Shown here piece by piece: positions 8,698 through 52,638 of a stretch of DNA of 64,000 nucleotides. This DNA is from Apus apus (lineage: Eukaryota; Chordata; Aves; Apodiformes; Apodidae): positions 2,976,001-3,040,000 of the forward strand of contig NC_067294.1 of NCBI RefSeq assembly GCF_020740795.1, written 5' to 3'. How positions within the stretch are numbered: the first letter of the stretch is position 1; each line of letters starts with the position of its first letter. The position numbers and the translations under genes were made by a program. The notes under the pieces were generated by a model. That model was given only the letters and a program-made list of their open reading frames with translations, ran no database searches and was not told where the DNA came from.

Positions 8698-30294
<21,597 letters not shown>

Positions 30295-31543
30295 CCAGGA
30301 TGTAAAATGCTTTAATACAGTGTCCGCCAATATTTTGCATTTAAATGGGATCCCTCATTTCTTGTAACTGACTTCACAAAATCCCTGAGACAAGATATTT
30401 TGGAGAAAGAGTGGCTTAGCTTGCTTTGCCTTTTACCTGAGACCCTCTGATGCCTGTGCGTGTCCTTTGCCATTGCTGGCTCTGCCTGGGGATGTAGTAG
30501 ATAAACCAGCAACAAGTAAGTTTGGCACAATCCTTTCCTAGAAACTGAACAGAGCTGGAATGAAAGCAGGAGCCCCCCACTGGTGTTCCCCAAGCCCACA
30601 GTAGCCAAGGCTGGTGGCAGCTGCCATATGAGCCTGCCCTCTGTCCAGCTGCTTCCCTCCTGTGGATCTGTACATCTTTGCTCTTCAAACAATGTAAAAG
30701 CAGCCAGGCTGGCTCAGTCCCCTCTGCCTTGGCACCTCCATCTCTGCCAGTGACCGGTGACAAGCACAGGGATGCTGGTCAGAGCTGTGCAGCAGCTGAT
30801 GATGTTTCCTTGAAGCTGCAACTCAAGCAGCAGTTACAGCTTTGCATGTTGATGTTTATTTGGTGCTTGTCTGATGATGGATCTTTGAACCCACCTGCCT
30901 CTTGGTACCCACAGCCTGGCAGCTACATCCAGCAGAAGTCCTGAGAACCCTTCTCCACCTGAGATGCAGGGCAGGATCCTGCAGTTGCTAAAAGCTTTAC
31001 CTCTGGTCCAGCAAAAAAAAAAATCCCAGTGAGGTCCCAGTACTCACAGCATTGAAGGAAGCCTGTGCTGAAGTGCTCGGCCAGGCAGGCTCAGTGCTCA
31101 GCACCTTGCAGGATGGAGCCATTATTTGTGTTGTAACACTCTTGTACCTGCTGGGTCAGGGTGGGGGGGCTTGGCTGGGTGCCTGGAGTCTGGTTGGAGC
31201 TGAAGGAAGCAGCATTAGCAGGATTCTTGCTAAGCTGGGCTAAGCTGAAACTATGCTCACCCTCTTCCTTGTTTGTTTGGGGTTTTTTTTGTAGCTACAA
31301 TTACTCATCGCAGACGTTGTTCCAAGAGCTGCAGATCCCACTGACAGGGTTGAAAATAATTTCTTCCATAGTTTCAAAGTCTTTGTTTTTATCCTATGAT
31401 CCTCACTGAGACACATTTCCACTGCTGGCAAGGAGGTTCCAGCCTGCTCGGGGCTGACAGGAAAGCGTGATCCTGCTGCCAAGTGTCCCCAGCATGCAGC
31501 ATCATGCCCTGCCAGCAGCTCTGGCTGTCGAGCTCCTGGGAGC

Positions 31544-31606
31544 CTGACAGCTCCAGGATGGGGAGACTGACAGCTCCAGGATGGGGAGACTGACAGCTCC
31601 AGGATG
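31544..31606. repeat. 23-bp tandem repeat, 2.7 copies
   Basis: The unit CTGACAGCTCCAGGATGGGG plus AGA is repeated perfectly starting at 31544, 31567 and 31590. Near-identity of copies means recent expansion. Confidence 0.9.
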
Positions 31607-32158
31607 CCTGAGCTGATTGCTCGGGTGGTCCCGGCAGCACAGCTCCTGGCTCCCCACCTGGGAGGTGCACGGGTGCCAACATCTGCATCAGGTGGATCAG
31701 TGGGGTGTGTGGTCTGGCAGGGGCTTGGGATGCAAAATACCAGTAGCTGCCCTGCAAGGAGTGGCCTTGGTAAAATAAGAAAGGCATTTTTGGTTAATCC
31801 TCAGCAAGTGCACTGTCAGGTGCTAATTGGTCGCAGGAAGCAAGATGTTGGGGTTTATTGTCAGTAACTCTGCTTGGGGCGTCGAGTGAATACCTGAAAA
31901 GATCCAGATTGGGACTACGTGCCCAAGTGTTCTTTGCTTGCAAGTGCCTTTCCCTGGGGAAGCTGCAGATTTCCCCGATATGGTTTGGAAATGATCACTG
32001 TTGTGAGGAATGAATAAAACTAAACCAAACAACCAGGCTGTGAAGTCTCCTGTTACTGGTGGGGAAGTGGAACGAGCTTCATGCAAAGTTTTGACAACAT
32101 CCCTAATGAACTGTGAAAACTCTGTTGTTAGAAATTGATACATAATGCGTGTGCTTTG

Positions 32159-32174
32159 AATAAAACCAATAAAA
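32159..32174 (+). promoter_or_regulatory. Paired AATAAA polyadenylation signals (PCBD2)
   Basis: Two AATAAA hexamers five nucleotides apart precede a T/G-rich downstream element near 32185-32200. They are the best candidate for the PCBD2 transcript end. Confidence 0.4.
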
Positions 32175-32384
32175 TCAAATTCCTCCTTTGTAATTTGTTT
32201 CTTTATTATTATACATATGTGACAAAGCTGTTTAGTTTAAAGATACATTTAAGATAAATAGCATTTAGTTACTGGGAGGTCTTTGATTTAGAATATTGAT
32301 GTTTATTTGCATACTCTGAGGAAAAAAAATCCCCACCAGCTACTTTAGCTCTGTGATCTGCACTGTCCAGCTATGGCACAGAGC

Positions 32385-32515
32385 TGTCCAGCCATCTTTC
32401 CCAGCCTTCCTATAGGCCCCTTTCAGGTATTGGAAGATCACTGTAAGGTCCCCCTGGAGTCTTCTCTTCTTCAGGCTGAACACCTCCAACTCCCTCAGCC
32501 TGTCTTCATAAGGTC
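32385..32515 (-). mobile_element. CR1 LINE fragment, antisense
   Basis: Read on the minus strand this has the CR1 order CCTTATGAAGACAGGCTGAG, 'gttcagcctgaagaagaga', then the ACCTGAAAGGGGCCTATAGG block. It is internal CR1 sequence lacking the 3' terminus and is moderately diverged. Confidence 0.8.
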
Positions 32516-35500
32516 AGTGCTTATTTAGCCACAATTATTAGTTAAATTCTGGGGCATCCCACAGACCTGTGAGTGCCTTTTGTGAGTGTTAACTGTGTAT
32601 TATTATTAACATGATCATTGTTATTAAAATATTTAATAAATGGCTTCCACTTTCTTTTCCAGTGAGTGCTGATGCTGGAGGCCACGTCACAAGTGAGATC
32701 CTAGCGGAGCTGATGCCATGAGGAGTTATGCCATCGTGATGTTCACACCATGGGTTCCCTTACGGCTTCCAGGTGATGCATCCCCTGCTCCTGCTCTCCA
32801 CAGGGCCAGGTAGGGGATCCCTGTGGTGCCAAGGAGCCCTGACCCCTCTTCACACAGCTAACAAGATCCATGGCAGCCAGCTTGTACCCACTCCCTACTC
32901 CTGCGTCTCCCCAGCTCTTCACCTGCCCAGGTGCTGCTGATGTGGCATGTGCTGGATGCTGAGGGGATGCACGGTCTCCCTGACTGAGCATGGGGAATTT
33001 ATACAGCCAGGATTTCATGACAGAGCAGCATCAGCTTGGCTGTGAACAGCAGCAGGCAGAGTGCAGGCTCTGGGGCTTGTCCAGGGGATGGCCCCACTGG
33101 AGCTGTACTGTTCCATGACATTAGTGCTCGAGCACATGCCCAAAATTCCATTTCCTTGGCTATGTTGGCTTCTCGGAGTGGGTTTGGTGCCTGCAGGTTT
33201 GCATCCCAATGGGAGCTGGTGCTGCTCCCACCATCTAACCATGGTTCCCTCTCAGTGCAAGGGTTGGCTTGTGGCTGGCAGCTGCCTGATCAAATATTCC
33301 CCTGGAGTATTTGTGGGTGTTTATTTTTTGCTTTAAGGCTGATTGTGGCTTGAAATATTTGGATAATCCATCATGAAACAGCCTTCTCCTTGCAGGTAGC
33401 TTCCCCATGCTGAGATTGATTTAACTCAGTGTGTTCCCTCTGCCGGCTCAGTCCATGGTGTGTGGGAAGTGCTGTCCCTGGGAGCCTGTCCCGTGCTGCT
33501 CCGTGGCCACAGGAAATTAAAAAGCAAAAACTGGAGGCTGAGAGAGCAGAGCAGGAGAGATGCCTGCAGCACAGGGGGTGGCTGGGATTGCTGCTGGGGT
33601 CATGCGAGGCTGGAGATCACACCTTCACAGGACTGTCTGTGGAACAGGACCAGCCATTAATCCTTTTCTTTCCCCACAATGGGAGCTCAGGTCCAATAAA
33701 CTGCAACAATCATATTGCAAGGGACAGTGTCGGTGTGGGGTGTGCTCTGGGGATGGGGTTCCACAGGCTGTTCTGCAGGAATGTGTTGAAAACCAAATGT
33801 CTCTGTCTTGGTTTGTGGGTTCTGGCTCTGTCCCACCATGCTGGGATTCCTCCTGCTCTTCCTCTTCCTCCCAAAGTGGTGGCCGAGGCGCGGTGCTGGA
33901 GTGTCTGAAGAAGAGCAGACCACAAGGAGGACGTGTCCTCACCCAGCTGCTTCTCTGGGCTGGAAGGACAGATTGATGGAGCTGTTTTTCAGATGTTTCC
34001 CCATTGCTCGTGACACATCCCTGGCTCCAGGATGGGGCTGGAGGGATCACCCTGGGATGTGTCCCGGCTGCTGTGCCAGTGGCCACCGGCTCTGGATTGG
34101 CCCCACCTGGAGAGTCAGCAGAGTGAAAACAAGGGTGGATTCTGTTGGACTGGGGTTTTCTCTTGGTTTATGTCCCCCAGATGGCTTGGCCTGGGGTCAG
34201 GGATGCTTGCAGCATTCCCAGTTTTCAGTGATGATCACAATTGCCAGGTTTGCCCCGATCCCAGCTCCAGCACTGCTGTCATGCTCAGCCTTGCAGCCTG
34301 CCAGGTCCTCGGCCCCGCTCTGCCTTTCCCTCATCCACGAGTGCTTTTTCAAAACATAATTTTGAAAGCCTCAAGCTTTCTGCAGTTTCTGCTAGGGGGA
34401 AGCATCCCCTCCGAGCTTTTCAACCTCAGGTTAATGAAGGGTTTGCCAATTAACTGAAGCTAATGAGTTCACCATGAGCTCGTGTCAGCTTTTCACATTG
34501 TTTGCTCCAAGAAACAAATGTTTGTGGCTTACTCAGAGCTGCACTTCAGGATTAGCCAAACACGTGTGTGTCCTGGAACAAGTGCTTGCAGAACATCCAG
34601 ACTAGCAAGCACAGAATGCTGACTAACTGCAATAAACTGGCAATTGTTTATACTCCTTCTCCTAAAGAACCAGGGCAGAAAGCAAACATGGATGTGAGTT
34701 ATCCCGCTGACATCAAAGACTCTTTTCATGCAAGTGCTGCTCATGCTGAAGATCTGTTGTAGAGCTGGACTCTTTGATGAGGAACTGACAACTCATTTGC
34801 AAATGAACTTTGGAAAAAGTCCAGGCATGGCTGCTAGTGAGCTGTGGGGATGCTGGAGCCCAGAGAAATGTCCCCAGAAAGAGTCAAGGTTTGTGCTTGA
34901 GCTCTGAAACATTCTCAGACCAGCAGTGGGTGTATGGAGGGGAATCATCCCCCTGAAGCTCAACTGCACACCTCCTTGTAGGAGAGCTGATCTTTTTTTT
35001 TTCTGCTGTTGGATGCTGCTGCCAGGGTGACAGGACAGCTTGATGCTCCTTAGCAGGGCTGGCAGCGTTTCATCTTTCTGAAGGTGAGGAGGGGGGACAC
35101 TCTCCCAGGTGCCATGGCTGAGAGGGGAGAGGTGGAGGGGATGGGAGTCTGGCCCTGTAGCTGCTTGGGGTGGCTGCCAGCCCAGTGTCCTCCCCCGTGC
35201 CATTGCCTCTGCCAGCCCAGGGCCTGGCTGAAATGTATTTCAGCTTCAGATCCCTCCACTTACTCGATAATTATCATTATTAAAATGCAATTGTTCAGTC
35301 CTTTCCACAGCAGCCCTTTCCCCCCTCATGGTTTTAGCACAGCTAATTTTAAGCACCCTTTAAAGACTCAATTTTCACATTGAAAAATCCCTTTTGGTCA
35401 CACTCCTGGATTTCCTTGTCTCACACAAGCCAGCTACTGTATGCAAACTTCACAGCCTTAATTATATACCCCAGTAATATATAGCCAGGCCTGGCTCATG

Positions 35501-35813
35501 TCAAGAAACCCAGTCATGAGTGCTGGGGGTTTCTGAGAGCTCTGGCTGCAGGACCAGCCTCAGTGTAGGAAGCAAGTGGCTTGTGCCCGGCTCCAAGGGG
35601 CTGATGGTGGGATGCAGGATGTGCTGGGATGTGGCCAGGACCCTCCCGTGCTGGGCAGTGACTTGTGATGATGACTGTGGCAGGGTGAGCTTGGCTCACG
35701 TTCAAAATTGTCCCCGTGGGCAGAGGGATGTTGTTGGTGGCATTTAATATGGAAGTGCTGGCTCAGCACACAGGGTTTGGCAGCTGCCTGCACTCACCTT
35801 CTCCTCTCTCCAG
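32516..35813. other. Intergenic sequence between PCBD2 and the CATSPER3-like exon
   Basis: I searched this span for the expected upstream CATSPER3 exons (N-terminus and S1 helix) and found nothing convincing. The GC content is high enough to give many overlapping open frames (for example 33429-34457), none with family resemblance. A short A/T-rich part lies at about 35260-35480. Confidence 0.45.
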
Positions 35814-36053
35814 GTCATAGATGCCCTCTTCATTGCTGTTTCCACCACTGAGCTTTTGGTGAAGCTGTTTGTGGGTCTCATCACCGAGCGGAAGAGCAGC
35901 AGCAACATCTTGGACGCTGTCATCCTCCTCATTGCCTTCCTCCTGCACACCTTGCCCCTGGACACCACCACGTGCACCCAGCTGGAGGGGACAGCCAAAG
36001 ATCTCCAGACCCTCTGCACACTCAAGCTCATCAAGTACATCAGCAGGAAGAGG
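35814..36053 (+). CDS. CATSPER3: CATSPER3-like exon (S2-S4 of the voltage sensor); rest of gene not found
   Basis: An 80-codon open exon is flanked by a strong acceptor (TTCTCCTCTCTCCAG ending 35813) and a good donor (GTAAAG at 36054), phase 0 at both ends. The translation has the cation-channel voltage-sensor layout. S2 contains V-S-T-T-E-L-L-V-K-L-F-V, followed by the S3 segment S-N-I-L-D-A-V-I-L-L-I-A-F. An S4-like end follows, L-Q-T-L-C-T-L-K-L-I-K-Y-I. It aligns along its whole length with mammalian CATSPER3 (T-S-E-L, N-L-L-D-V-I, and L-K-L-I-x-Y near the end). It lies on the same strand just after PCBD2, where CATSPER3 sits in human. CATSPER3 is a pore-forming subunit of the sperm flagellar calcium channel. 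S1, S5, pore, S6 and C-terminal exons were not recognised, so this may be a relic or a partly diverged gene. Another voltage-gated channel is less likely given the synteny. Confidence 0.72.
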
Positions 36054-39000
36054 GTAAAGTCCCAGCAGAGATGGGGGATCCCAAACCCAGAAGCAGGGGG
36101 ATGCTTTGCTGTACCCAGATGTCTGGAGCTGCAGAAGAGCTGATTCTTATGGTAGGTCATGAGGAAAGGTGAAAACTAATAATTCCTGATTTTTTAAGAA
36201 GCTCATGGCTTGTCATTGGCTTTCCCCCCTCTTTCTCCTTCCCCCACAAGGAAAGGGTGGATTTTCTTTATTACAACAGCAGAGTAGACACACAAACCTC
36301 CCCCACCCCTATAAAACAGATCACATCCTACTCTTGGCCTGTGTGTATTTTTCTCCCCAGCACACCATCTCCTGCTTAGTTTTCTCCTGGTGACTCTGGA
36401 GGTTTGTTGTTCAGCAAGGAGCTTATGTGGGCAATGAATGCTCAGCCAGCGTTTCTGCGTGTAATTAATTGGCTGGGTAGCCCACCAGAAGTGGGATGTT
36501 TATGGGCACAGGGCTCTTATAACATTCACTTCTGAGCCTTCATTCCTCTAGTTTGGATCGTAAACTTCACTTATCACCAGACTTTTATATGTTAATTATT
36601 CTGTGTCGTTGGGAGCAGGGAGGACATGTAGAAATGGGTGAAATAATGAAGGGTTTAGGCACGGGGGATGAGATGCTTCTCTTTGGTCTGGCTGATCATA
36701 TGGGAACAAATTGATCCATGGGAAAATGGGGAGATACTGAAATCAGGGTAAATGAGTGTAGGTTTGTGCCTTGTGCACTTGTGGAACTCACTGCCAGGAG
36801 ATGCCTTGTCTGGGAGCCATGAGGAAGAAAACCTGTAGGATAAGATTTGGCACCGTTCTCCCCTGAGGTGCTTAAAATGTTGTGGTGCTGTGAAAAAAAA
36901 TCCCACTCGGCACGAATCTGCAAGTTTAAGAGTCTAAATAAAGGCCTTTGAAAATCTGGACCGTGAGACACAAGGTTTTGATGGAAGTCGGTGGGACTTA
37001 ACACCTAAGGGACTGGGGCCACTGGGAAATTGCGTCCTGGCTTTGGGTGAGAATGCCTAGAATGGCAGTACTGGGGGAAAAAAAAATACCAGAGGAGAAT
37101 TCTTTAGGCTCTCACAGTCCCTTCCTGTTCCAGGGACGCTATAAATATCCCCCAAAGCCCTGCAATGCTGCCACTCTCCAGCTCCAGGGGTGCTGGGTAC
37201 TTGCCTCTGTGTCCTGACCTGGAGGGACAAGTGCCATGAGCCACTTGGCATCCCAAAAGGACACCACCCCTTTGCCTAAAATCAGCTTTGCAATGGGATA
37301 GGGGTGTCTTCAGCCTTTTGCTGAAGGTGCATGAGGCTGTTTATGCCTCTGTGTGTATTGTAATTTGTTAATTGAAAGCTAAATTAGCCCTCAACAGCTT
37401 AGCAGTATTTAATGCAGAGAACTCAAACATGCAACGCATTCTTGGCACGTTGCCCTTGATTAATTAAAAACCTCTTTAAAACACTCTGCCTTCCACCTTG
37501 GAGCAATAAATTTCCACCTTCAGGAAATAATTTCCTTGTTGTATTCCATACAGAGACGTTCTGTTAGCTGCAATCTCTGTTTTAGTGTAGGCCCCATTCA
37601 TCCTTAGTTCAATTTCAAAATAAACTTTAAGCACACCAGGTTGTTCTATAAAAAGAAAAAAAAAGAAAGAAAATACTTTTCTGCTTTAAAAAAATATATA
37701 TTTGGGATTAATTTTGGTGTGTTTTACTACTTGAGCAGACTGGGGAGTACAAAGATCCTTCTGAGTAAAAGCTGATAGGACTCAGCAGCGGTTCCTGAAG
37801 CATCCAGAGAACCTTTGGCCACTGGGAAGGAGGTGATGGTCCTGCATGGGAGGCACTCCCCAGCCTTCAGTTTGCTGGGAGCATTTTATGACCCTCCTGT
37901 CACCCCTGGCTCTGGGGGGGCTGGCTTCCTTTTTGACCACGTGCCACAGCCCCAACCTGCCCAACAGTATGACGTAGCTTGGCAAAAATGTCACTAGGTT
38001 TTTGGGGTTGAATGGCTTTTGTTCCCCTGCTAATCCTGGAGAGACCAACGTGTGCAGAGAGGCAGGAAAACCCTCTGCTTGTTCCTCCAGAAATTTGTAC
38101 CAAACTCAGTGGGTTTGGGGCTTTATTAGTTTGGGCTTTTTGGTCCTGCAGACAAGTTGCACATGTTGTCTCAGCATTGGGTGCTGCCCTTCCCTGCTGC
38201 CCCATGAATAGCACAGTGGGATGATTTTCTGGAGCAGGCAAGACCTGCAAAAGCTGGGAAGTGCTGCAGGAGCCCTTAACCCATCTGAAGCAACCTGGGG
38301 TGTTGGCAGCTGGAGGAGACTGGGCAGAGCTCCTTGCTTGAGCTCTGCACAAATGTTCCCTCCAGGAGGGACCACCAGACCAGAGTGATTGGGTGCAACA
38401 CAGAACTCTAACCTGAGAAGCTGTGGAGAGTCAGAGATGATGGATGGACAGTCCTTGAGTGGGTGCACTGTGTAAGACCCCTTGTGGCAGTAGCAGACAC
38501 GGTGTCACCTGCATGGAGCCAGGGCCAAGGTCAGCTGAGTGTGCTGGGGAAATATGGCAAATCCCATGCCAGAGGCACTTGCTCCCCAGCAGCTACTGGC
38601 TGCCAGCCCCAGGTGGTCCCTGCTTAACCCCTCTCACTGCTGCACAGGGCTGGACCAGGAGTTTTTTGAAGCCCAAGACTCCTTGACTGATCTCTTGACC
38701 CACCAGCTGTGAGTGATGCTCAGGGACACAGTCACATCCCTGTGGTTTGGTAGGACTTGCCTCAGAAGTACAGACGGGACTGTGAAGGTGGCTGCTCCTT
38801 GGGCCAAGAAACAGAAGAGCCTGAAAAAAGCAAGAGAAGAATATGAGCAGCCACATCAGGCTGGAGCAGGTGAGCTGGGGTCTGCTGTGGGTGGAGAGCA
38901 TGGTCTGCAAATGTCAGGTGCTGTTTAAGAGAGGAAGATGTGGATGAACTGCTTTCAGTGGAGGAAAAAAATCCTGGTTTTCCTTGCCCATTTTTATAAT

Positions 39001-40470
39001 AACCCAGGCTGTAGATCCTATCTACCTTTTTGGTGGGCTCATCACATGTGCAGCTGATGGTATTATGGTGGCACATGATGGTTAAAGTATCATAAAGGTG
39101 GAGAAAAACAAACCCTCTTAATCAGTTTTAGTGTGTTTTGTCTGAGTTTGTTTAACTTCAAAGAGGAGTTGAAAAAGAAGTCCTTCCAGGCCAAGCCAAG
39201 AGCCCTGTCCAGAAAAGGCTTGGACTCACTTTCTCCCAGGCTCGAGGGAGGTCCTGCTCCTTCCCACCCTCTTGCAGCCCGTTGATGTGATGTAACCAAA
39301 ATGCTACTAGGGGCTTGAAGCAGCCGCTGCAGCGTCTGTAGGAGCTGCCCGCTGCTTGATGAAGGGCTTTAGCAAAGCTGACTTGAAATAAAGGCAGTAA
39401 AGCTGTCACTGAAATGTAAATGATTAGAGGAACGTGACTCCCTGTTTTCCCCGACTCTTCTGCTCGTTCTTGCTGTTAGCAAATGGAATTTTAAAATAAT
39501 CAGTTCAGGATGGCTCTGTTGAATGTTCTTGCCTTTGGGCCAGAGCATCACTGGTTCAAGTACTAGACTGAGTGATCGATTCGGGTCGGCTGCTTGGGTT
39601 CCACCCAAGGGCAGGGGTGGGGGTCCCTGTAGACCTGCTGGCCTGGGTGGGTTCTGAGAAGACCCTGGGCTGCCTCCTTTGGGACATGCATCCCCATCCT
39701 GCACCACTGGGCACCTCTGGCTGCTCCAGAAGTGCCTTGAGGATGGGGTTACAGACAGCCCCACTTCCAGCCTGCAGCTGGTGTGAAGTTCATAGTAGGG
39801 TCAGGGTGACTGTCCCAAATGTGACCTCCTTCTTGTTAACAGTGTTTTCTTCCTGGGCTTGTTCTTTTTCATGGCACAAAATCACTCAAGTTGAAGATTT
39901 AAGTGAACAGCTGGATGGCATCAAGAAGACTTGGTGCCACTTGGTGCCATGAGTGAGGGGCTTTGTTTCACCATCCCATTTATTGATCTGTATTTATTGT
40001 TCCTGGACCTCCAGCATGACACAATGAACAGGTCAGTAACAAGCCTCCAGTCTCTCAGATGCCCTTTTTTATGTTCTGAATCATTTTCTTGGAACAAATG
40101 GATATTTTGAGGCTGTTCTGCCTAAGGAAAGTGCTACTGGTCTCAGCACAAGCAGTGCTGAGAGTTTAGGAAGGTGCCAACGTATGGCACGTGCTAGAGA
40201 CGGGACAGGCTTTGTCCCTGTCAGGAGGGCTAACACCATTTCCCAGTGGAATTGGTGTCCATCACAAATGTTCTCAAGTTTCTGATGGAAAATTCACCAT
40301 TCTTCACTGTTCTTCAATCCACCCCAGCTCCAGCATGTCCAGGGGTTTGCAGAGCCCCTGGTGTCCCCTGGACACACAGCCCCGCGCTGCAGGGTGGCTG
40401 GGCAGAGCTGGACAAACCGTGGGCTGGGAAAGGATCATCACAGCCCCGATCCTTTTCCTGGAAACCTTGT
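36054..40470. other. Sequence downstream of the CATSPER3-like exon
   Basis: No exon with clear resemblance to the CATSPER3 S5-pore-S6 region was found. A possible but weak candidate is 39843-39925 (see findings). The stretch has short AT-rich parts (about 36480-36600, 37360-37700) and many overlapping open frames without recognisable domains. Confidence 0.4.
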
Positions 40471-40479
40471 GGCAGGGCT

Positions 40480-40980
40480 GGGCCTGGAGCTGCTCTCCCT
40501 GCCGGCTCCCTCTTTCTAAGAGGCAGCAGCCTCGACGTAGCTCCGGGGCTGCTCCCAGCGGGAACAACCGCCCCGCGCTGGGGAAAAAGGATGGTGGCAT
40601 CTCCCAGCAAAGCAGTTTCTGTGCCCTGATGCGGAATAACATCTTGGAATGACCCGCCCGGGTTTAATGCAAACACGCCCACACGGCCTTGGGTAAGCGG
40701 AGAAGGGCAGAGGGGACGGGCGGGGGGCAGCAGCGGCACAGGGTGTCCCGGTACCCGAGCTGCGGCCCCGGGACCGGCCCTGAGCTCAGCGAGAGATCTC
40801 CTTGGGATGGCGAGGAACGAGTCGTCCTGACCCGCTGCCGGTCGTGCAGGCAACGGGGATCAGCCGAGCGGGGCTGGACCGGGCTCCGCTGCCCCCCCGG
40901 CCCCTCGGCACGGGCTGGGAAACCAGCCGGGATTGACGGGAGGGAAGGGGTGATGGGTTTGGGGGTCGGGCTCTCTCCAG
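40480..40980. promoter_or_regulatory. Orphan CpG island
   Basis: A compact GC- and CpG-rich block lies in otherwise ordinary sequence, about 4.5 kb past the CATSPER3-like exon and not attached to any recognised gene. It contains AATGCAAACACGCCCACAC (octamer-like plus KLF/SP-like) near 40666-40684, followed by GGTAAGCGG, a good splice donor. It could be a promoter of a non-coding RNA. The frames through it look like composition shadows. Confidence 0.5.
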
Positions 40981-43900
40981 GCTACGTCGGCAACCAAGAG
41001 GCGGGTTTGAGGATGACAAAAGGGAGGGAAGTGCCCTGGGTTTGGGGGTCTGGCTGTCTCCAAACGTGGGGAGAGGAGTGGTTGCCTCAGGGCAGGGATG
41101 TTGGGGGCTCAGGGCTGCTTTGGGCTCCAAAGCCTTTGCCCAAGCTGGCTGGCCCCGGGGGGGCTGAGAGCTGCTCACAGGAGCTCCTTGTAAAAGGGCT
41201 GGGGAGGAACCCACCGCGTGAGCTCCTGCTCAATTTGTTCTTCATGTTCTCGTTGGTAATGATTTTGTGTTTTATGAGGGATACTTCCTAAGACTTTCCC
41301 AACATGATGGAAACACATGTGGTGCTGTAGTACGTGATGTGACTCCCTTGGTGGAGAGATGAGATGAAAACCTGCTTTCCTCTGACAGCTACGGGGGATT
41401 CTGTTCTGGTCCCTGGGGCACGGGGTAACCAACCTTCCCCTACCCGTGCCCACGTTGTTCACCTCTCCAGAGATACTGCCTGCATTTCTTTTCATGCACA
41501 ATTTCCAGGTGAATCCTTCTTGCCAATTCATTATTTAAACTTTTTCTCTTCCTTTTTATGTTTTTCTAGGGGTCACTCTGCTCTAGGCCTATTCATGTCC
41601 ATGAGTCACCCCTGGGTGACATGGAAACCATTGCTTGGAATTTTATCCAAAGTGCAGGTTGGCTTCTGTGCTCACTTCAAGGACAGAGCCAAACCATGGG
41701 AAGCAAACACCAACCCTAGAAACCTTTCTGGTGCCCAAAACACTGTGATGCTGCCCCCTCGGCTTTGTCCTGGGGACACCCAATATGAAATGGGGGGTCT
41801 CAGCAAAGAGACCCCCGTATATTAACGAGGGAAATTGTGTGAGGGAAATTAATGAGGGTATTTTGTGAGTTGGCTTCTCCTGAGCTTTGGGCTGGTGTGA
41901 ATTAGGTAGCAGGGCAAAGAACCCAGGAGGGCTGCACCAGTGTAAACTGGACTTCATGAAATAGAAAGGAGAGGCCCCTTTTGTCAGGCTTTTCCTCAGA
42001 AGCTAAATGATACATAATGTTTATATAGTGTTTTGCCTCTCCTAAATGCAGGCTAGACATTAATTGATTCCAGGTTTTGCTCCGTGAAGCAGGTCAGCAC
42101 TTTCCATTCTGCAGATAAAGGAGCGGTGGGGATTGCCGAGGGGTGCATGGGGGGTCAGCGCCAGTGCTGGGGCACCTCTGGGCTGGCCACCCTCGCCCTC
42201 AGACCACTCTGCCTCCTACATATACACCACTTCTGATGTATGTTGGAATCAGCTGCAGCTCTGTAAACCCAGCTACATTAAGCCTGGTTCAAATGAAATC
42301 TGTTTATGTCTCCAAAGCTCGCTGCTGGTCAAAGCAGGACTTAACCAACCTAATGCTGTTTGTGTTCAAAGCCTCTTAAACCTCTGCTCTGATCATCTTG
42401 AAGTGAAATGGAAAGTACTTCCCAGGACCTGGCCAGAGTCCAGACTTCCCCCCCCTCTCTTTTGCTTGTGGGGCCGTTTAGAAAAAGCGCTACATATTTT
42501 AAACAGTGGGGGGAAAAAAATAATTTGAGTTCAATTCTGTTTACATAGCGTTGGAAGCCCGGGAGGGTTTGTAGAGGTGATTATTAATGGTTTAAACTAG
42601 TGTGGTAAAAATGTTGCCTTGGTCTGGGGACAGGAGCTGGCTCTTGAGCTCCCAGTGCTGGTTTACCAAGCACCAGCCCCATGTGGTCCCCTCACCCTCG
42701 CACGTTTCCATCAGAAGACTCAGACACAGTTTTACTGGTCTATTGCACAGTGGGATCGTGCACCTATAAAACTGCTCTTAATTACTTCCTAAGTTACTAA
42801 CCAGGATGATGATGATTTTGTCTTATAACTTGACAGGACTTTGTCTATCTGGTGTAACCCCCTGCCCACCATAACCTCGCTGTCCATGTGTATCCAAAGA
42901 TGGTCACACACCCCACGCACATCTCCATGGCTGCTTTCTGGACACCCATTGTCCTGCTCTCTGAAGCTGCCCATGACATTTTTCTTGCCAGCTTGTGCCC
43001 ACTTCCCCACGCTGAGCTGTGATGCTGTTGTGGAGCAGCAGCAGGTTGGCAGGTGCCTGCACAATGGGTAACACAGCCTGGGCAGTGCCTGGTTTGGAGG
43101 GTGACAGGCTCCTGGTCCTCCTTCCCAGCATGGCCAGTTCAGAAGTGCACAGGAGAGACTGTCCCCTGTAGCCATGGCACTGACTGCCTCTGCTCTGCTT
43201 CCACTCTGCTTTGCCAGAGGAGTCTGAGGCAGTGGCTGCACCAACAAAGAAAATATTGCTGAAAATTACAGCTGGGAGCTGAGCCCGTGGCAGCATCAGT
43301 TCCGGCAGCACCTAGACTCTGCTTTGAAGCTCTCCACTCCAAATACTACCACCGTAAGCCCTGGGGATTACCCTGCACTGAGTGCCAATATTACAAAATG
43401 CAGAAGCAGGCAATTTATCTGCCTGCTTTGGAAGCCACCCTGGCACAAGAGATGATGGAGGCACTTAGGAGAACGTTGGTGTTAGAGGCTGGGTCACTGT
43501 TAGTACCTCCAGCCTGGCTCTGGCTGAAGCAAGTGTAGGATTAATCTGACCTCATTAACTGACTCTGATGTAGTCTAAAAACACACCTTGTATTCTAAAA
43601 TCAAGACATTGTATTTAGAAAAAATCATTTACAAAAATGAAGAAGTTTGGAGGCTTTTGCACACAGAGGAAATTGGTCTTTTCTAGAGGAATCCCCTGAG
43701 GTTCTGTGACATCTGTTTCTCCAGGGCTGCAGCCTCTGAGCAATGTGACAGTGAGATGGAGAGAGAAGGGGTTTCCCTCTGCAAGCATTGGAGTTGCCTT
43801 TGTTGGGACAAGGTGTTGGGTGACAGACCTGTGAGGAGCATGGGGGGGCTGAGGAATGTCCTGTGTGCTCCTCACTGTGAGATCATAGGCAGAGAGAACA

Positions 43901-46900
43901 GCCTTTATTCCATGAGATGCCCCCATCCCAGAGCGATTTTCCTTGAAAAACTCAACATTTGTTCAAAAAATGTGTGACTCCAGCCTCATCCTGCACAAAA
44001 GGTCACCTTCAGATGGGTGTGGTATTTGGTATGGGGCTCAGAGGTAGCACCATGCTGTGATACATGAAGTCATGAGACCCAGAGCCGCCCTCACTGCCTG
44101 GCCCAGCAGCAAGGAATATTTAGGGGAGGGATTGAACTCAGTGGGAACTTCCCAAGTTCAAGGGGTGGAGAGTCCAGTTAGAAGGAGATTAAGAAAATGT
44201 TTTAAAAGGAACTTTCTGTTACAATAATATAATTACCTGAATCCTTCAGTTCATGCCTCTCTTGGGTGTCCGTGACCCAGGGCTGGCTCAAATTGATGAA
44301 GTTATTCTGGATTGATAACTGGCATGGGAAGAGGATCAATCCCAGAATTTTCAGACCTGACATTGATGCTCCCAGGTGGGAGACAACACGTGGGAAAAAG
44401 GCAACTGGGCACAAGCGTGGTAGGAAGCAACAAGGAATCTCCAACCAGCACAGAAGCTGGCAGCAGAAATGTCCCAGTGATGACTGCAAAGGATGTTTCA
44501 GTGCTTACCACCCTCAGCAGGGAGTGTGCTCCAGGAGCCACTGAAAGCTCCATGGAAAACTCCAGTTTTCCATTTTGCACTGAAATTGGGCACTTCTGAA
44601 CACTTGCCTGTGCAGGTTGGTTGTCCCGATTAGCTGCTGGTCCTTGGAGATGCTCTCCTGGCAGGCTGTGCCCACAGCTGGTGCCTGGGTTCCTCCTGTG
44701 GGTGCAGATGGATGATCCGGATGGAGAACTTCAGGAGTCAAGTCCTTGGCCTCTGGGCTTAGATGCTACAAAGAAAAAAAAAAAAAAAGGTAAACCAAAG
44801 CATTTTGAAATCTGTTTCTTATTCACTGTACTGCCAAGCTGCTGCAAGACTTGCTGGAATCAAAATCCCAGAGAAAAAAAAAAAAGAGTGGAAAGGATTT
44901 TTCCCACTGATATTGTTGGCAGTGGGAGAGACCTCGCTGTCTGCTGGGACAGGTGGGGATGGGGACAGGATTTCTGCTTGCTCATGAGGGTGAGGAAAAC
45001 TTTTGAAATGTTCCTTGTGTCCCCTCAACCCTTTCCAAGAGGGAAGTTTATTAATGACTGTGAAGAACTGAAGGCAGACTGCAAGACTTAAGGAAGGGGA
45101 CTTGGAGAGATGCTTCACAGGTTAGTTTTTGGTGGTGGTGAAGGGTGAATGTGAGGTCAGATCATGCTGGCAGGAGAAACATTGTCAGCTGCTCAGGCCA
45201 AAGTGGGGTTTTGCTGGATGTTTCCCTGCTCACGGCGTCACCAGGAAGCAACTCCCAGCACTGCCAGACACTGAGGGAGATGCCAAGGCTGTCCCTGCTC
45301 TGCAGGCTGTGGACCAGAAGATGTTTTGTGGTACCAGGGGGCTCTTCCCAGCGCTGGCAGCAAGGTCTTGCATCTGCCATTTCCCCCCGCAGTGCCCACC
45401 CCTCCTGGGAGCCACCCCCAGCTGCTCGTGCAGGCTGCAACTGGGGTGAGTGGAGCAGGGAAATGTTTCCCAGAGCCTCTCGGGCCGTGATGCCAGGAAT
45501 CATCTCTGCCTTGGCAGAGGTGGCCTCAGCTGTTGGAACCTGCCCTCTCGCCCGTGAGTCAGAGTGGAAGTGCTGGCGTCATGGGGTGGCTTGGAGCAAA
45601 GATGCAAAGCTGGGAGGTGCTTCCAGAGCTTTTCATTTCCTTGAGGGCAAGACTGAAAAAATATTTGTGAGGGGGAAGGAAAGACTCTGGCAGCTCAGAT
45701 CCTGCAAAAGCAGCACCAGCTTTGCTGGCTGGGATGGCAGGGAGGCAGCCACTGCTGCCTGCAGGGACAGGGACTGCCTCTGGGGCCCCAGTGATGGCAA
45801 TGCCATGGCAGGGAGAGTGGCATGAAGTCTATAGGCACCCATGGGTAAGCCCTGGTACTGGTGACATGTCCTGCGAGCCGTTTGGGGCATGTCTTGCAGA
45901 GGTGGCCACCATTGCCCTGCTTGGAGCACAGTGGGACACAGCCAGACCCAGGGTGGGACAGAGCCCTGGCTCATGTGAGGGTCTTGGGGACTGGTGAGCC
46001 CCACATATGGGGCTACAAACATGAATGTGTCCTATTTAAGTCAGATAGCATCAGGAGATGGCTCAGCAGGGTTTCCTGAGGACAACTGCCTTTGGGCATC
46101 TTGGAGGATCTTCTGTCTTCTAGCACTTTTGCTCTCAGGGGTTTGCCAGTCCCTCTCTGGTCTGTGCCACAGAGCAAAGAGCAGAGCTGAGGGGGGATAA
46201 ATCCTCAGCATCACCAGCCTGGGGAGTGGGGACAGGCTGTGACACCCAGAGGCCTCTGAGCACAGGGAGAGAGGCAGCAGGAAGGGCTGGGGGCTCAGGG
46301 GGTGGAAGCTGGTGGAGCCTCTGCAGGGAGGACAGGGTGTGTGAACTCCTTCCAGCACATGGAAACTGTGATGGGTCCACCTGGCTCCACAGGATGGCTG
46401 AAAAGTGGTCAGAAAATGGTGGCAGCAGGGATGTCCTGCAGTGGGTATCAGACCCATCTGGAGAGGGGTGGGAATGGAAACCCCAGTACCAGGCTCTCCC
46501 CAACCTTGGGGAAGTCCTGTTGCCTCCAGACTCCAAGTTCATGGCTCAGAGCCATCTCTTGTTTAGTCCCAGTGAATTACTGAGCCCCAGGATGCCAACC
46601 TTACTGAGGCTTTTGTAGAAGTCAAGGGCTCAAATTGAGCAGGAGCTCAGGGAAACCATTCCCCTTGTTAAAATAAATGCATTAGTTTAATATGTACCAG
46701 GAGAGGACAGAGAGTTCTCCTTGTTAAATATTTACCAGTCAAACCCTGCTGAGGACTTGCATGGAGCAATTCAGCTGTAGTGATTTCCTTCTATTGTGGT
46801 CTAAGTCTCCAGCATCGTTGGGAAACCCCTGGGCAGGGCCAGGAGGGCTGGTGGCAGATCCCAGCCCTGGGCAGTGAAACCACAGCTGGGGTGACCACCT

Positions 46901-47831
46901 GTCATGCCTGGGGCCACCACGGGGCCTCAGTGGGTCCCCAAATCCATCCTGGGAGCTCCACAGGGATGCTGGCACCCACCTGGAGCGAAGGGGTGAGCAG
47001 CCTTGTTTCTGAAGGGGAGGGAGGTGGAGGAGAGGTGCCCAACAACCAGGCAAAGAAAAAAACAAAAGGGAAAAAAAGGGAAAAGATTAGGAGAGGCACA
47101 AAACTTGGCTCTGTGCCTTTCCTGTCCTGCCAGCCCCCGGGAGCATCCCCATGGTGCTTTCTCAGACACACCACAGTGAATTTTAACAAGGGGTGTAATT
47201 TCTCTGGCTGCTCATCCCCTCAGGAACATGTAACTTTGAAAAGAACCCAAATTGTGAGTGAGCTTCATTTCCCTAAGATGTCCCTCCTGCTGGTGGAGTT
47301 AAGTCATATTCCAATCATCTTCTGGAGTTCAGGATATCCTGACTTAGCTATTCTCTTTATAGGAACAATATTATATGGATGTTATTGACCTATATATGTA
47401 CTAATTTGACACACATATACATTAATAACTTAATTGTCATTTACAAGTTTATATTCCAGTAACCTGCAATGGTTCAAGATTTCTTAACACTGGTAACAAT
47501 TTATTTTTTTTTTTTTTCCTAATCAAGTTAAATTGAGATTATTTGCATTTTTGGTGACTCCACATATTTTTATAATCCTGTTGCTTCCCCCTAAGGACTC
47601 TAAAAGAAAATGGAAGCACAGGAAAACATGAGGGATCTCTGTGGAAAGGCTCAGGACTTGTTGGTCCATCACTCTCCTGGATACAGCAATTGGAGATTTT
47701 CAAGCCTCATGTCACTGTGTATTTTTTAAAGACTGTCTCTATTAATAACGTTAAGAGAAAACAGATGCATCAGGTTTGCAACCAGAAATGTGGATATTCC
47801 AGGGGACATCAATTGTTGGAAGTAAACAACA
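40981..47831. other. Intergenic sequence without recognised genes
   Basis: About 6.9 kb of moderate-to-high GC sequence. Two A runs lie at 44770-44788 and 44873-44884, and a T run at about 47504-47518. Open frames up to about 226 codons (45145-45825) overlap longer frames on the other strand and have no recognisable domain, so I leave them out. Confidence 0.45.
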
Positions 47832-47990
47832 GCCCTGATTCAACAAAGCTCTTAAGCAGACACTTAACTTTAAGCATGCACTTAACACGGGCTTCAGCGA
47901 GGCGTTAACATATGTCCTGCTATATAAGGAGGGACTTAAGTACCTACTTACAGTTAAGCTTGTGCTTAAGTGCTTTGTTGAATTGGGGCC
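47832..47990. mobile_element. Palindromic MITE-like element (CHOMPY-like)
   Basis: A 159-bp imperfect palindrome. The left arm, GCCCTGATTCAACAAAGC then CTTAAGCAGACACTTAAC, pairs with the right arm, GTGCTTAAGTGCTTTGTTG then AATTGGGGCC. The repeated CTTAAG/TTAAGT words and GGCC ends match the palindromic non-autonomous DNA elements common in crocodilian and turtle genomes, called CHOMPY in crocodilians. Naming is from memory. The arms have diverged, so the copy is old. Confidence 0.65.
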
Positions 47991-50900
47991 AATACTTCAG
48001 CTCTCCCTCTGTCTCCCTAACATTAACTGTGCCTGACATCCAGGAAATTCGAGCAGGGGCTGCTGTAGTCACCTACCAGCCCTTCTTTTCCCTTCAGACA
48101 GAGACTGCATCTCTTACAGCAGTGCCCAAGTGTCCTGGGTGGCAGGGACAGGCTTTCTTGGTGGCAGGGTCAGGCCATCTCAGACACCTTCGTGCCCCCA
48201 TCACTTCCCATCCCTTGGGATGCCCACGGGGTCACCTGTAGAGAGACCAAGAAACAGTCACACTTTTAAGTCTCTATGAAGACCCTGCCAAGAAATCTTC
48301 TGTGCTTTTATTCTTATTGGTTTAAAAATAAAGATATATTTTTTTCTATAATATTTCACATGTTCATAAAAGTTTATTGCTTTCTTTGTGCTTATTTCAG
48401 GTGGGTGGTTATTTTTAGCCCTGAGCACCAAGAATTGCACTGTGCAATGATTTTGCCTCCCTGGTAAACCTTTTTGCCAGAAAACCTAATTTTGCAGTTT
48501 TTTCCTTTTGTGGGCTTGTGCATCATCAGGTGAAATGTGACTGGGAAAGGCCCTGGTGTCTTCCTGGGTTACTGCTGACCTCCTGAACCAGCTCTGAGAT
48601 GCCTTTCCAATTAACTTGGGGCTCATCTTCTTGGCTGTAGGTCACCTTCGTTTCAGACCAAAGTTACTGAGGAGGAAGGTTTCTCATTCTGGTCACTGTA
48701 ATGACACTTTGAATCAGCATTGCTGGAAACCCCACAGCCCAGCTGTCAGCCTTTTCCACGGCTTGGGATCAAATAACCAGAAATTGTTAGCTTTTGTTTG
48801 CAGGAAACCAGTTTTCTCTGAAAAGCCAACAGATCTCATTTCACAAGCCAGGGAGAACTCAGGGAAAGTGGGAACCGAAGTTGGTTCCTCCAGACCTGAA
48901 GCACATGAGGCAAGTCCAAGCATTTCCAAAGTTTTCCTGGTTTGTAGGTGAAGTTCTGGCCTTTTTTTTTTTTTGCTATCAAAGGGAACTTCTGCACTTG
49001 CTGCCATGGGGCTGGAGCAGTTAACTCCCTGGGGTTTTCCTGCTGGACAGTTTTTAAGCGGTGGGTACGGCAGAAGCTCCCTGGAAGAGAGGAGCCTGTT
49101 GCACAGCAAACCTGCTGCCTCGCCCAGCCCCAGCTTTCTGTCTCTGCCCAAAAGGTCGTGGCAAAACAAAAGCTTTTGTTTAACCAGCCAAAGCCAAGTG
49201 TGATGAACTTGTGCCCTTCACTCAGACGTGACCCAGGGGGTGTTGTCGAGAAACTGAGCAAAGTTTTCTCAAGTAAGAAAATTAAGACTTCAAGGACTGA
49301 CTCTTCACTGCTTATTTTCTTTGCAGATGGCAGCATCCAATTCCAGTTATTTCTGCCTTGGAAAATGAAAAGCACTAGCAGAAGAAAAGGAATGTGAGTT
49401 TGCAGCAGAGTTTGGTACCTGGAAGACTGCAGGCTGGAGTGCACGCTCCTGATTTATGGTGTACTTGTTAAAACCACTTGTTCTTGTCATAACAAAGCAG
49501 GTCGAAGTGAAGCTGGGTAGAAGGTCTCCTTCTAGTTGGCACTTCATCATGGCTTCTTACTCTGTCTTAGGTTCTGGGGGTTTACAGTTATATAAAACTT
49601 AATGAATCAGTATACTTTAGATTTCCTTCCTAATGCATATGGGTTCAATTAACTGCACCCTTTGCTTATTTAAGCATTTTCATTAAATTGCTTTACTATA
49701 TTTTCCTGCAATTGAAAGGGAACATGGTGGGGCTGATGCCATCTGCCACCATCAGTTTAGCAGAACCTCTCCCTTTGTTCAGACCCCTTCTTTTTTTTTT
49801 TATTAGAAGAGACCCTCCCAGCCCAGCTCCCTGTGTGCCATGCACTTAGTGCCTCCTCCTCTTCTGACTGCAGACTGATAAATAAAAAGCTTGTGCAAGG
49901 ACCTTCAGGTATGGTATTTTTCAAGGCTCTCTTTTACAAGATCAGGTTGTGTTTTGCTCCCCCTTCTCTCCCCCTGCTTGCAGATTCCTTTTTGCTCCAG
50001 CCTGTGAATAAATAATTGTTGCTGTTCCTATCCCCAGCAGCTCTGGCTGCCTGGCTCTGCAAGGAGGGGGATTGCTTTGCCTAAAGCACCTGGTCAGGAC
50101 AGCAAGGACAAGACAGGGGAGGCTTTCTCCTTGCTTTTAAGAAAGTTAATCCTAACCGTTTCACCAAACCTTCCTAAAGGTCTCTCTCATGGCAGAGAGT
50201 GGCATCCCTGCCAGTGTCCCTGCTTCACCTGTGGCTTCACTTTTGGATCTGGTGCCCTTAGAACTTCCTTCGCTGTCCTTCCCCCAGCACAGAAGTTGGT
50301 GTTACTACATTCCTCCTCCTTGCTTTCTCCTGTCCTTTTGAGCTGCAACTTGCCAGTGGAAGTGCTCTCCATGTGCAGCCCTCTGCTCCTCCAAGGGCTG
50401 GGGGTCCCTCTGAAACACCTCACACCCTCAGGGATGCCCCTCGGGGCCTTGCCCTCCTGTTACAGACCAGCTAAACTGAATACACTCACCTGCTTGCCTC
50501 AGGATGCAACCTGCACCCTTTACACAAAGCTTTATAGTGCTTTATAGACATCACTGATAGGTACAAAACACCTCCTGAAGAATGTAATGGAAGGGGGGAA
50601 AATATTCATCCTTGAGGACTCTGGTCCAGAGATCAGCTCTTTGATTTGGAAATGCAGTGTTTGATGTTGCATCAGTTCTCTGCTGTCTTGGCTAGGGAAC
50701 AGGGGAGGACACTAGTGCTCCTGGGGCACACTGAGATGTTGCAATGCAGTCTGGGGAGGAAAACACCCCAGCATTTATCATTTTCTGTTCCCTGCTACAG
50801 GTATTTTATGTCAGGGAAGATGCAGTGAGAATAAATAACTTGTCCTAAAGGTACACAATGAATCTGTGGCGAGGCCAGCAAGAGAAACACTTTAACCATT

Positions 50901-51094: not shown

Positions 51095-51391
51095 GAGGGA
51101 AAAAAAGGAAAAAGAAAGGGAAAGAAAGGAAGAAAGAGAAGAGAAGAGAAGAGAAGAGAAGAGAAGAGAAGAGAAGAGAAGAGAAGAGAAGAGAAGAGAA
51201 GAGAAGAGAAGAGAAGAGAAGAGAAGAGAAGAGAAGAGAAGAGAAGAGAAGAGAAGAGAAGAGAAGAGAAGAGAAGAAGAGAAGAAGGGAAAAGAGAAGA
51301 AGAGAAAAGAAAAGAAAAGAAAAGAAAAGAAAAGAAAAGAAAAGAAAAGAAAAGAAAAGAAAAGAAAAGAAAAGAAAAGAAAAGAAAAAAG
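51095..51391. repeat. 297-nt pure polypurine tract: (GAGAA)n then (AAAAG)n
   Basis: No pyrimidine occurs on the + strand from 51095 to 51391. The core is about 28 tandem GAGAA units (51135-51275), a mixed AAGAAG transition, and about 17 AAAAG units (51303-51388). Long Lys/Arg/Glu or Phe/Leu/Ser frames here are repeat translations, not genes. Confidence 0.97.
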
Positions 51392-52638
51392 TTCCAAATC
51401 CTTCCATTTTCAGTAAAGTGAAATTAAGAAAAAGCAAAATATACCAAAACAGGTTTATACTGGAAGGAAGAGCATTTCCCCCACTCAAAAGTGTTAAGAG
51501 TTGTTTTTCTTCCTTTTGTTATTTTCAAAAAGTTTCCTGATGGGGTTTTTGTTTGTTTGTTTGTTTTTCAATGAAAACGGTAGCAGAGGCGACGCGGAGT
51601 TTGCAAAAACTTCGCCGAGTTGCCGAATGAAGGAATTAATGGAGGAAAAGATCAGCGGGGAACGCAGCGGCTGCATCCCGGTGCCTCCCCCGCCCCATGC
51701 CCGCTGGGCACAGGGACCCGAACCCCTGCTAACAACCCTGCAACTGCCTGGATTTGCCTAAATCGTCAGGAATCACCTGAAAATAAACCAAACTGGTGCA
51801 GAGCCTGGGCTCTGGGAGGCTTTCTGAGAGAGCGGCTTGACAGCCCTGCCAGCTCCAACCTCTCTCTGGTGCCTTTTATTCTTGAAGTGAGGCATAAAAT
51901 AAATTGAAGCTGCTGGCTGTGGTAAACATTCCCTCCAAACATGCCTGTTCTTGACACCCCAAATGCAGATACTCGCTTGTGGAAGAAAATGGAGAAAGAA
52001 AGAAAGAAAAAAGTAATTAAAAAAAAAAAGAAAGAATGAAAAGAAAAGGAGAGAGAGAAAAATCCCGACGCTTCCAAGACACTAAAAATAGACTCTGATC
52101 ACTTACCAAATGGTAAAATGAAAATGATTTGCTTTGAATAGTCTCCAGAAAGGCTCAGATACAATGTCTTGTGGAGCAAAATTGAATCAGTTGAAAGTGC
52201 AGACGCCAGCTCAGCTTAATCCCTCCCAGCTGCTTTGCTTTGCTTTTTTTCCAACAAGCAGCCCCTAAAAGTCGTCTCCCTAATCCTGCAAACTGAAATT
52301 CAATCTTGTTTTTTTTTTTTTTTTAAAATCAAGTTTCAAGCCTGGGGCTTGCAGGGTGGGGGAAGAGGAGGAGGGAGGGCTTTGGGGTTGCCTCCTTCCC
52401 CTCGCCCTGACTGCAGTAAACGCAGCCTTGAATTCAAGGAAAAGCTTTAGACTACAATTCGCTTGGCTTGAGCCAAACACACAAATCTGATGCTTTTAAA
52501 GCCCCTCCAGCAGACGGGAGATAGCTTTGAGATGCTCACTAAATGGCTGTCTGGTCGCTGCCTTTTTTGTTGTTGATTGGGGGCCAAGGAGACCTTGTCT
52601 CTGGGTTGTTTTTTCTTCCTTTTCATTTTTTTTCTTTA
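51392..52638. other. Spacer between the complementary pentanucleotide arrays
   Basis: This spacer has a (GTTT)n stretch near 51548-51570 and a purine-rich patch at 51987-52064. Repeat-free stretches at about 51575-51760 and 52085-52560 keep isolated CpGs and look like candidate regulatory DNA. No gene was recognised. Confidence 0.4.

Follow-up and report, generated by a model that had tools for sequence, protein, structure and literature searches.

Cai and Clapham (2008; PMC2572835) described degenerate fragments of CATSPER3 for chicken and zebra finch, and a further report lists CATSPER3, B, D and E as fragments in zebra finch and adds CATSPER2 to this set for chicken (PMC6679542). Since CATSPER2 fragments are reported there for chicken and not for zebra finch, the losses of the CatSper genes need not coincide. 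The same report infers that CATSPER1, 4 and G were lost in Neognathae and gives CATSPER2 as missing in Passeriformes (PMC6679542). Evidence of CATSPERB among birds is, as one report states it, found in a ratite only (PMC4290089). A further report finds CatSper conserved in kiwi and tinamou but in no other bird, with three intact alpha subunits in ostrich (PMC6660944). At odds with these papers, one report collected nine bird CatSper3 sequences and describes birds as lacking only CatSper1 (PMC11289002). Outside the CatSper genes, STK33, which is unrelated to CATSPER3, is reported as kept in palaeognaths and as a unitary pseudogene in neognaths (PMC4509753).

Here we analyzed a stretch of 64,000 nucleotides (the window), which contains two CATSPER3 remnant exons whose order and strand are those expected of the gene. 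The locus is very probably a CATSPER3 unitary pseudogene, i.e., the bird's own gene, no longer functional but still between PCBD2 and PITX1 where it originally lay. It would be a relic of the kind already published in chicken and zebra finch, and it extends the record of bird CatSper loss by one locus. As in the relics reported for these two birds, a short translatable piece is left (PMC2572835, PMC6679542). The two exons here together span 4.2 kb, compared with a zebra finch CATSPER3 locus whose reported length is about 7.1 kb (taeGut1) or 4.7 kb (PacBio assembly) (PMC6679542). The present description differs from the chicken and zebra finch reports in that it probably concerns another species and includes two exons, a frameshift and a tandem duplication. 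Comparison of the second exon and its concrete lesion between orders could be used to date the loss of CATSPER3. Finding an open relic exon beside the neighbour that is expected does not, on its own, show that the gene survives.

Identity and genomic position of the S2-S4 exon

The first remnant exon (Table 1) is preceded by a pyrimidine-rich tract and AG directly upstream, and its length of 240 nt is divisible by three. An earlier note on this DNA had described an 80-codon phase-0 exon with splice sites that encodes S2-S3-S4 of CATSPER3; our coordinates, reading frame and AG/GT signals all agree with it. When the translation was compared with the PDB by phmmer, five matches were obtained at E up to 10. 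The top two were the CATSPER3 chains 9ubw_C (E 2.8e-4) and 7eeb_C (E 4.2e-4), aligned ungapped over 74 residues, and the other three were T-type calcium channels (E 1.7, 2.6 and 6.7); no other CATSPER chain was among the five. The assignment to CATSPER3 made in the note is thus borne out (E 2.8e-4; next family, E 1.7), and the best match is not to another channel. A CACNA1, SCN or TPC paralogue was rejected as the identity of the exon, as only T-type channels came next, at E 1.7 or weaker. The Pfam Ion_trans model scored 14.9 bits (E 0.016), below the cut-off of 25.

Table 1. Features annotated in the 64,000-nucleotide window.
Feature	Position	Strand	Remarks
PCBD2 exon	10983..11114	+	tblastn, 75% identity to human PCBD2
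PCBD2 exon	28650..28742	+	tblastn, 87% identity to human PCBD2; last bases may overrun donor
PCBD2 last coding exon	30196..30291	+	tblastn, 81% identity to human PCBD2; followed by TAG
CATSPER3 remnant exon, S2-S3-S4	35814..36053	+	80 codons, open; acceptor AG before, donor GTAAAG after
CATSPER3 C-terminal exon remnant (human residues about 321-365)	39891..40031	+	broken; read in two frames, the first with an in-frame TGA
10-bp tandem duplication, 11-base run of period 10	39929..39949	+	located where the reading frame changes

Both 7eeb and 9ubw are mouse CATSPER3. Within the ungapped alignment of S2-S3-S4, 25 of the 74 residues are identical to the mouse protein and 23 of 74 to human CATSPER3; the human sequence used aligns almost end to end with the mouse protein in the PDB (E 7.2e-166). 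Frameshift-tolerant alignment to this human protein gave S2-S4 a score of 103. For the null of these alignments, the plus strand at 30300-45000 was resampled 200 times in 500-base blocks with an order-1 Markov model, with the human reference only; the maximum for S2-S4 was 53, and 0/200 reached 103. The homology of this exon to CATSPER3 is far beyond chance. The sequence has changed at most of the sites identical between mouse and human CATSPER3, with 19 of 47 kept on a scale set by this mammal pair. An S4 arginine common to mouse and human (mouse position 152) is a cysteine here, and the next lysine, in LKLI, is kept.

The exon also lies where CATSPER3 would be expected. The tblastn matches to three PCBD2 exons agree with the earlier placement of PCBD2 just upstream on the same strand, and 5.5 kb separate the stop codon of PCBD2 from the S2-S4 exon. 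Downstream of the CATSPER3 remnants, 1.2 and 3.8 kb past the end of the window on the same contig, two PITX-type homeodomain exons are found on the minus strand (C14:3041197-3041250 and 3043834-3043974). Both are identical or nearly so to a PITX1 query, of which the homeodomain alone may fail to separate PITX1 from PITX2 and 3. The claim that CATSPER3 neighbours PCBD2 in human is consistent with 5q31, where PCBD2, CATSPER3 and PITX1 are reported as listed consecutively (PMC2222245). As the remnant sits at the expected place of CATSPER3, with PCBD2 and PITX-type exons on its flanks, contamination or paralogy is unlikely, as had been proposed from gene position. With CATSPER3 as its closest family and a place between PCBD2 and PITX1, the exon is the CATSPER3 orthologue by descent. 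Further along the window, at about 51100-51410, a long purine-rich short-period repeat gives RREEK runs in several frames.

A broken C-terminal exon and missing channel segments

The second remnant was first visible as a candidate at about 39970-40032, with E 0.29 in tblastn and an independent E-value of 0.18 with a mouse-human CATSPER3 HMM run on six frames. Neither match is significant alone. However, frameshift-tolerant alignment lengthens the match upstream in another frame, so that human residues 321-365 correspond to 39902-40032, and this piece scores 64 with the human reference against a null maximum of 51 (0/200 reach 64). When the whole window was searched on both strands with either the mouse or the human reference, the S2-S4 and C-terminal places ranked first for their segments. 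The exon limits in Table 1 were read by eye, and the exon ends in a donor-like site, CAG/GTCAGT. The frame breaks after LVP, and a TGA comes next in the first frame. The period-10 duplication lies at this break, and ten bases would shift the frame. CATSPER3 therefore has no continuous reading frame here, as the C-terminal exon is frameshifted with an in-frame TGA.

The other segments of the channel were at background. In the frameshift-tolerant search of 30300-45000, the N-terminus and S1 scored 37, which was reached by 92/200 resampled sequences; the stretch from S4-S5 to the pore scored 35 (166/200) and S6 scored 32 (107/200). For CATSPER3 residues 285-325, a segment outside the resampling null, the best places in the window scored 35 (mouse) and 38 (human) and lay away from the remnants. 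Mouse and human CATSPER3 agree at 57/70 sites in the pore and 41/55 in S6, compared with 54/85 in S2-S4. Being more conserved, the pore and S6 should have been easier to detect than S2-S4. The six transmembrane segments with pore loop are thus incomplete: S1, pore and S6 were absent from the tblastn, HMM and frameshift-tolerant searches of the window, which holds no N and ends some 1.2 kb short of the closest PITX1 exon identified. Unlike mouse CATSPER3, the remnant is one in which pore, S6, S1 and N-terminus are not found, one S4 arginine is replaced by cysteine and the C-terminal exon is frameshifted.

CATSPER3 and the CatSper complex in the rest of the genome

The search was extended to an assembly of 1.10 Gb in 110 contigs. 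One of these (C110, 17,037 bases) carries mitochondrial genes, with an ND3 free of frameshift. Another (C5, 115.5 Mb) may be a fusion if it is equivalent to chicken chromosome 4, a guess made from contig order; as such a counterpart it would be larger than the chicken chromosome. To place the animal, one alpha-A-like globin exon and one of two adult-like beta globin exons were compared with the PDB. In both, 3wr1 was the top single-domain chain (E 9e-36 and 1.8e-44), before 3eok (1.1e-35 and 7.1e-43), 3a59 (3.9e-34 and 7.2e-43) and 3wtg (1.9e-33 and 1.9e-42); six fused haemoglobin constructs scored higher in the alpha comparison through the sum of two domains. These chains are from cormorant (3wr1), duck (3eok), ostrich (3a59) and emu (3wtg), so that the genome is that of a bird and probably of a neognath, with small score differences that make this weak to moderate evidence.

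Mouse CATSPER3 gave 30 matches in the whole genome at E up to 10, among which the S2-S4 exon was tenth (E 0.0107) and the only one on the contig of the window. The nine stronger matches cover residues 152-233 only and lie within clustered Ion_trans matches, in genes that we take to be sodium channels; they were rejected as an intact second copy. No intact CATSPER3 was found elsewhere in the assembly, in an inspection that covered the ten strongest of the 30 matches; the 20 weaker ones have E 0.04 to 9.5.

Among other CatSper subunits, CATSPERB_C gave two sub-threshold matches in the genome, the better of which (E 0.22; C6:49134259-49134384) contains an in-frame TAA. A PP4R3 (SMEK) gene occupies C6:49086018-49102554, at a distance of 31.7 kb from this match, and contig C4 carries another PP4R3 gene. 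The chicken CATSPERB relic is reported between SMEK1 and TC2N (PMC2572835), and the trace here is likewise near SMEK, the comparison covering the SMEK side only. CATSPERG and CATSPERD had 0 matches in the genome at E up to 1, in searches in which no control gave a signal either. Among viral contigs, a search for related loci returned 36 pattern matches with 0 confirmed, in a collection where birds are unexpected.

The open frame as evidence of function

Open frames of 240 nt are common in the window, with 9750/127520 (7.6%) overall and 2904/23140 (12.5%) at 52-60% GC, and 3 of the 6 frames are open across the interval of the S2-S4 exon itself. As 12.5% of frames of similar GC are equally open, the open frame alone is within chance. 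Codon-position composition is more distinctive. The GC content of the exon at first, second and third positions is 0.475, 0.36 and 0.81, compared with a third-position GC of 0.48 to 0.55 in the PCBD2 exons. Nowhere else in the window is the third-position contrast as high: it is reached by 25/127522 frames, all overlapping the exon in sense or antisense; a second place of high contrast on the minus strand was rejected, as it is the antisense of the S2-S4 exon. The strong contrast argues that the exon was once under coding constraint, and it does not tell when this constraint ended. It leaves a small chance for late loss or co-option of the exon.

The likelihood that a single exon stays intact was calculated with a decay model that starts from the present open sequence and assumes 0.05, 0.08 or 0.12 indels per substitution; its values serve as orientation only. 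For these rates, the probability of being intact was 0.27, 0.17 and 0.08 at d = 0.1 substitutions per site, 0.087, 0.025 and 0.008 at d = 0.2, and 0.025, 0.004 and 0.001 at d = 0.3. The earlier note had found an intact frame of 240 nt surprising. This is weakly supported, with 0.8% to 8.7% at d = 0.2 and 8% to 27% at d = 0.1 over the three rates, and the exon examined is the best-preserved of several. The open frame of the S2-S4 exon is thus weak evidence of function. RNA folding of the exon was no better than that of shuffles (z -0.35), and no Rfam match reached the gathering score in 30000-48000; an RNA gene or strong RNA structure was therefore rejected.

Interpretation of the locus

The relic lies at the original locus and carries inactivating lesions, and no functional copy was found among the ten strongest genome matches; these are the features of a unitary pseudogene. 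The evidence for this reading is that CATSPER3 is the best match, that PCBD2 and PITX flank the remnants, that the C-terminal exon is broken, that pore, S6, S1 and N-terminus are at background, and that few of the sites identical in mouse and human are kept in the S2-S4 exon. It is also consistent with the CATSPERB_C trace with its TAA near SMEK and with the relics published in chicken and zebra finch. The intact S2-S4 exon, with both splice signals and the top third-position GC contrast, counts against it, as do the decay-model probabilities. The earlier note had left open whether the exon is a relic or part of a gene that survives in this lineage. The broken exon, the missing segments and the lack of an intact copy elsewhere favour the relic, and the same observations speak against the surviving gene.

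Constraint on CATSPER3 was probably lost when neognaths gave up the CatSper complex. Its S2-S4 exon has probably stayed open by chance, as it is short and GC-rich and would have been spared frame-breaking indels. The remnant would yield no channel and any transcript would be non-functional; lack of function, time of loss and neognath affiliation are all inferred.

Selection on the S2-S4 exon in another role, e.g., as a cassette or terminal exon in a PCBD2-linked or independent transcript that encodes a short membrane protein, is very unlikely. Such a role would fit the open frame, the splice signals, the window's highest third-position GC contrast and a length divisible by three, but PCBD2 has its own stop codon well upstream, most of the sites common to mouse and human CATSPER3 have changed, the S4 arginine included, and neither RNA folding nor Rfam points to a structured RNA. 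It is just as unlikely that in some neognaths the voltage-sensor exon outlived the channel and was selected in a short membrane protein or a PCBD2-side readthrough transcript.

The age of the unitary pseudogene has a further alternative, in which CATSPER3 was lost late and in one lineage only, so that the S2-S4 exon would be young debris and not an early neognath relic. We consider this highly improbable: even though an exon that has diverged little since the loss would be expected to show such an open frame and codon-position bias, the only further exon of CATSPER3 detected is broken, the remaining segments are unrecognisable, and the published chicken and zebra finch fragments suggest that the gene was lost early (PMC2572835, PMC6679542).

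That a functional CATSPER3 survives, with its missing exons lost from the assembly only or diverged past recognition, is extremely unlikely despite the open S2-S4 exon with its splice signals and coding-like third positions, the CatSper reported in kiwi and tinamou (PMC6660944) and the report that birds lack only CatSper1 (PMC11289002), given that the window is free of N almost to PITX1, that the less conserved S2-S4 is detected where pore and S6 stay at background, that the C-terminal exon is frameshifted and that the CATSPERB trace holds a stop.
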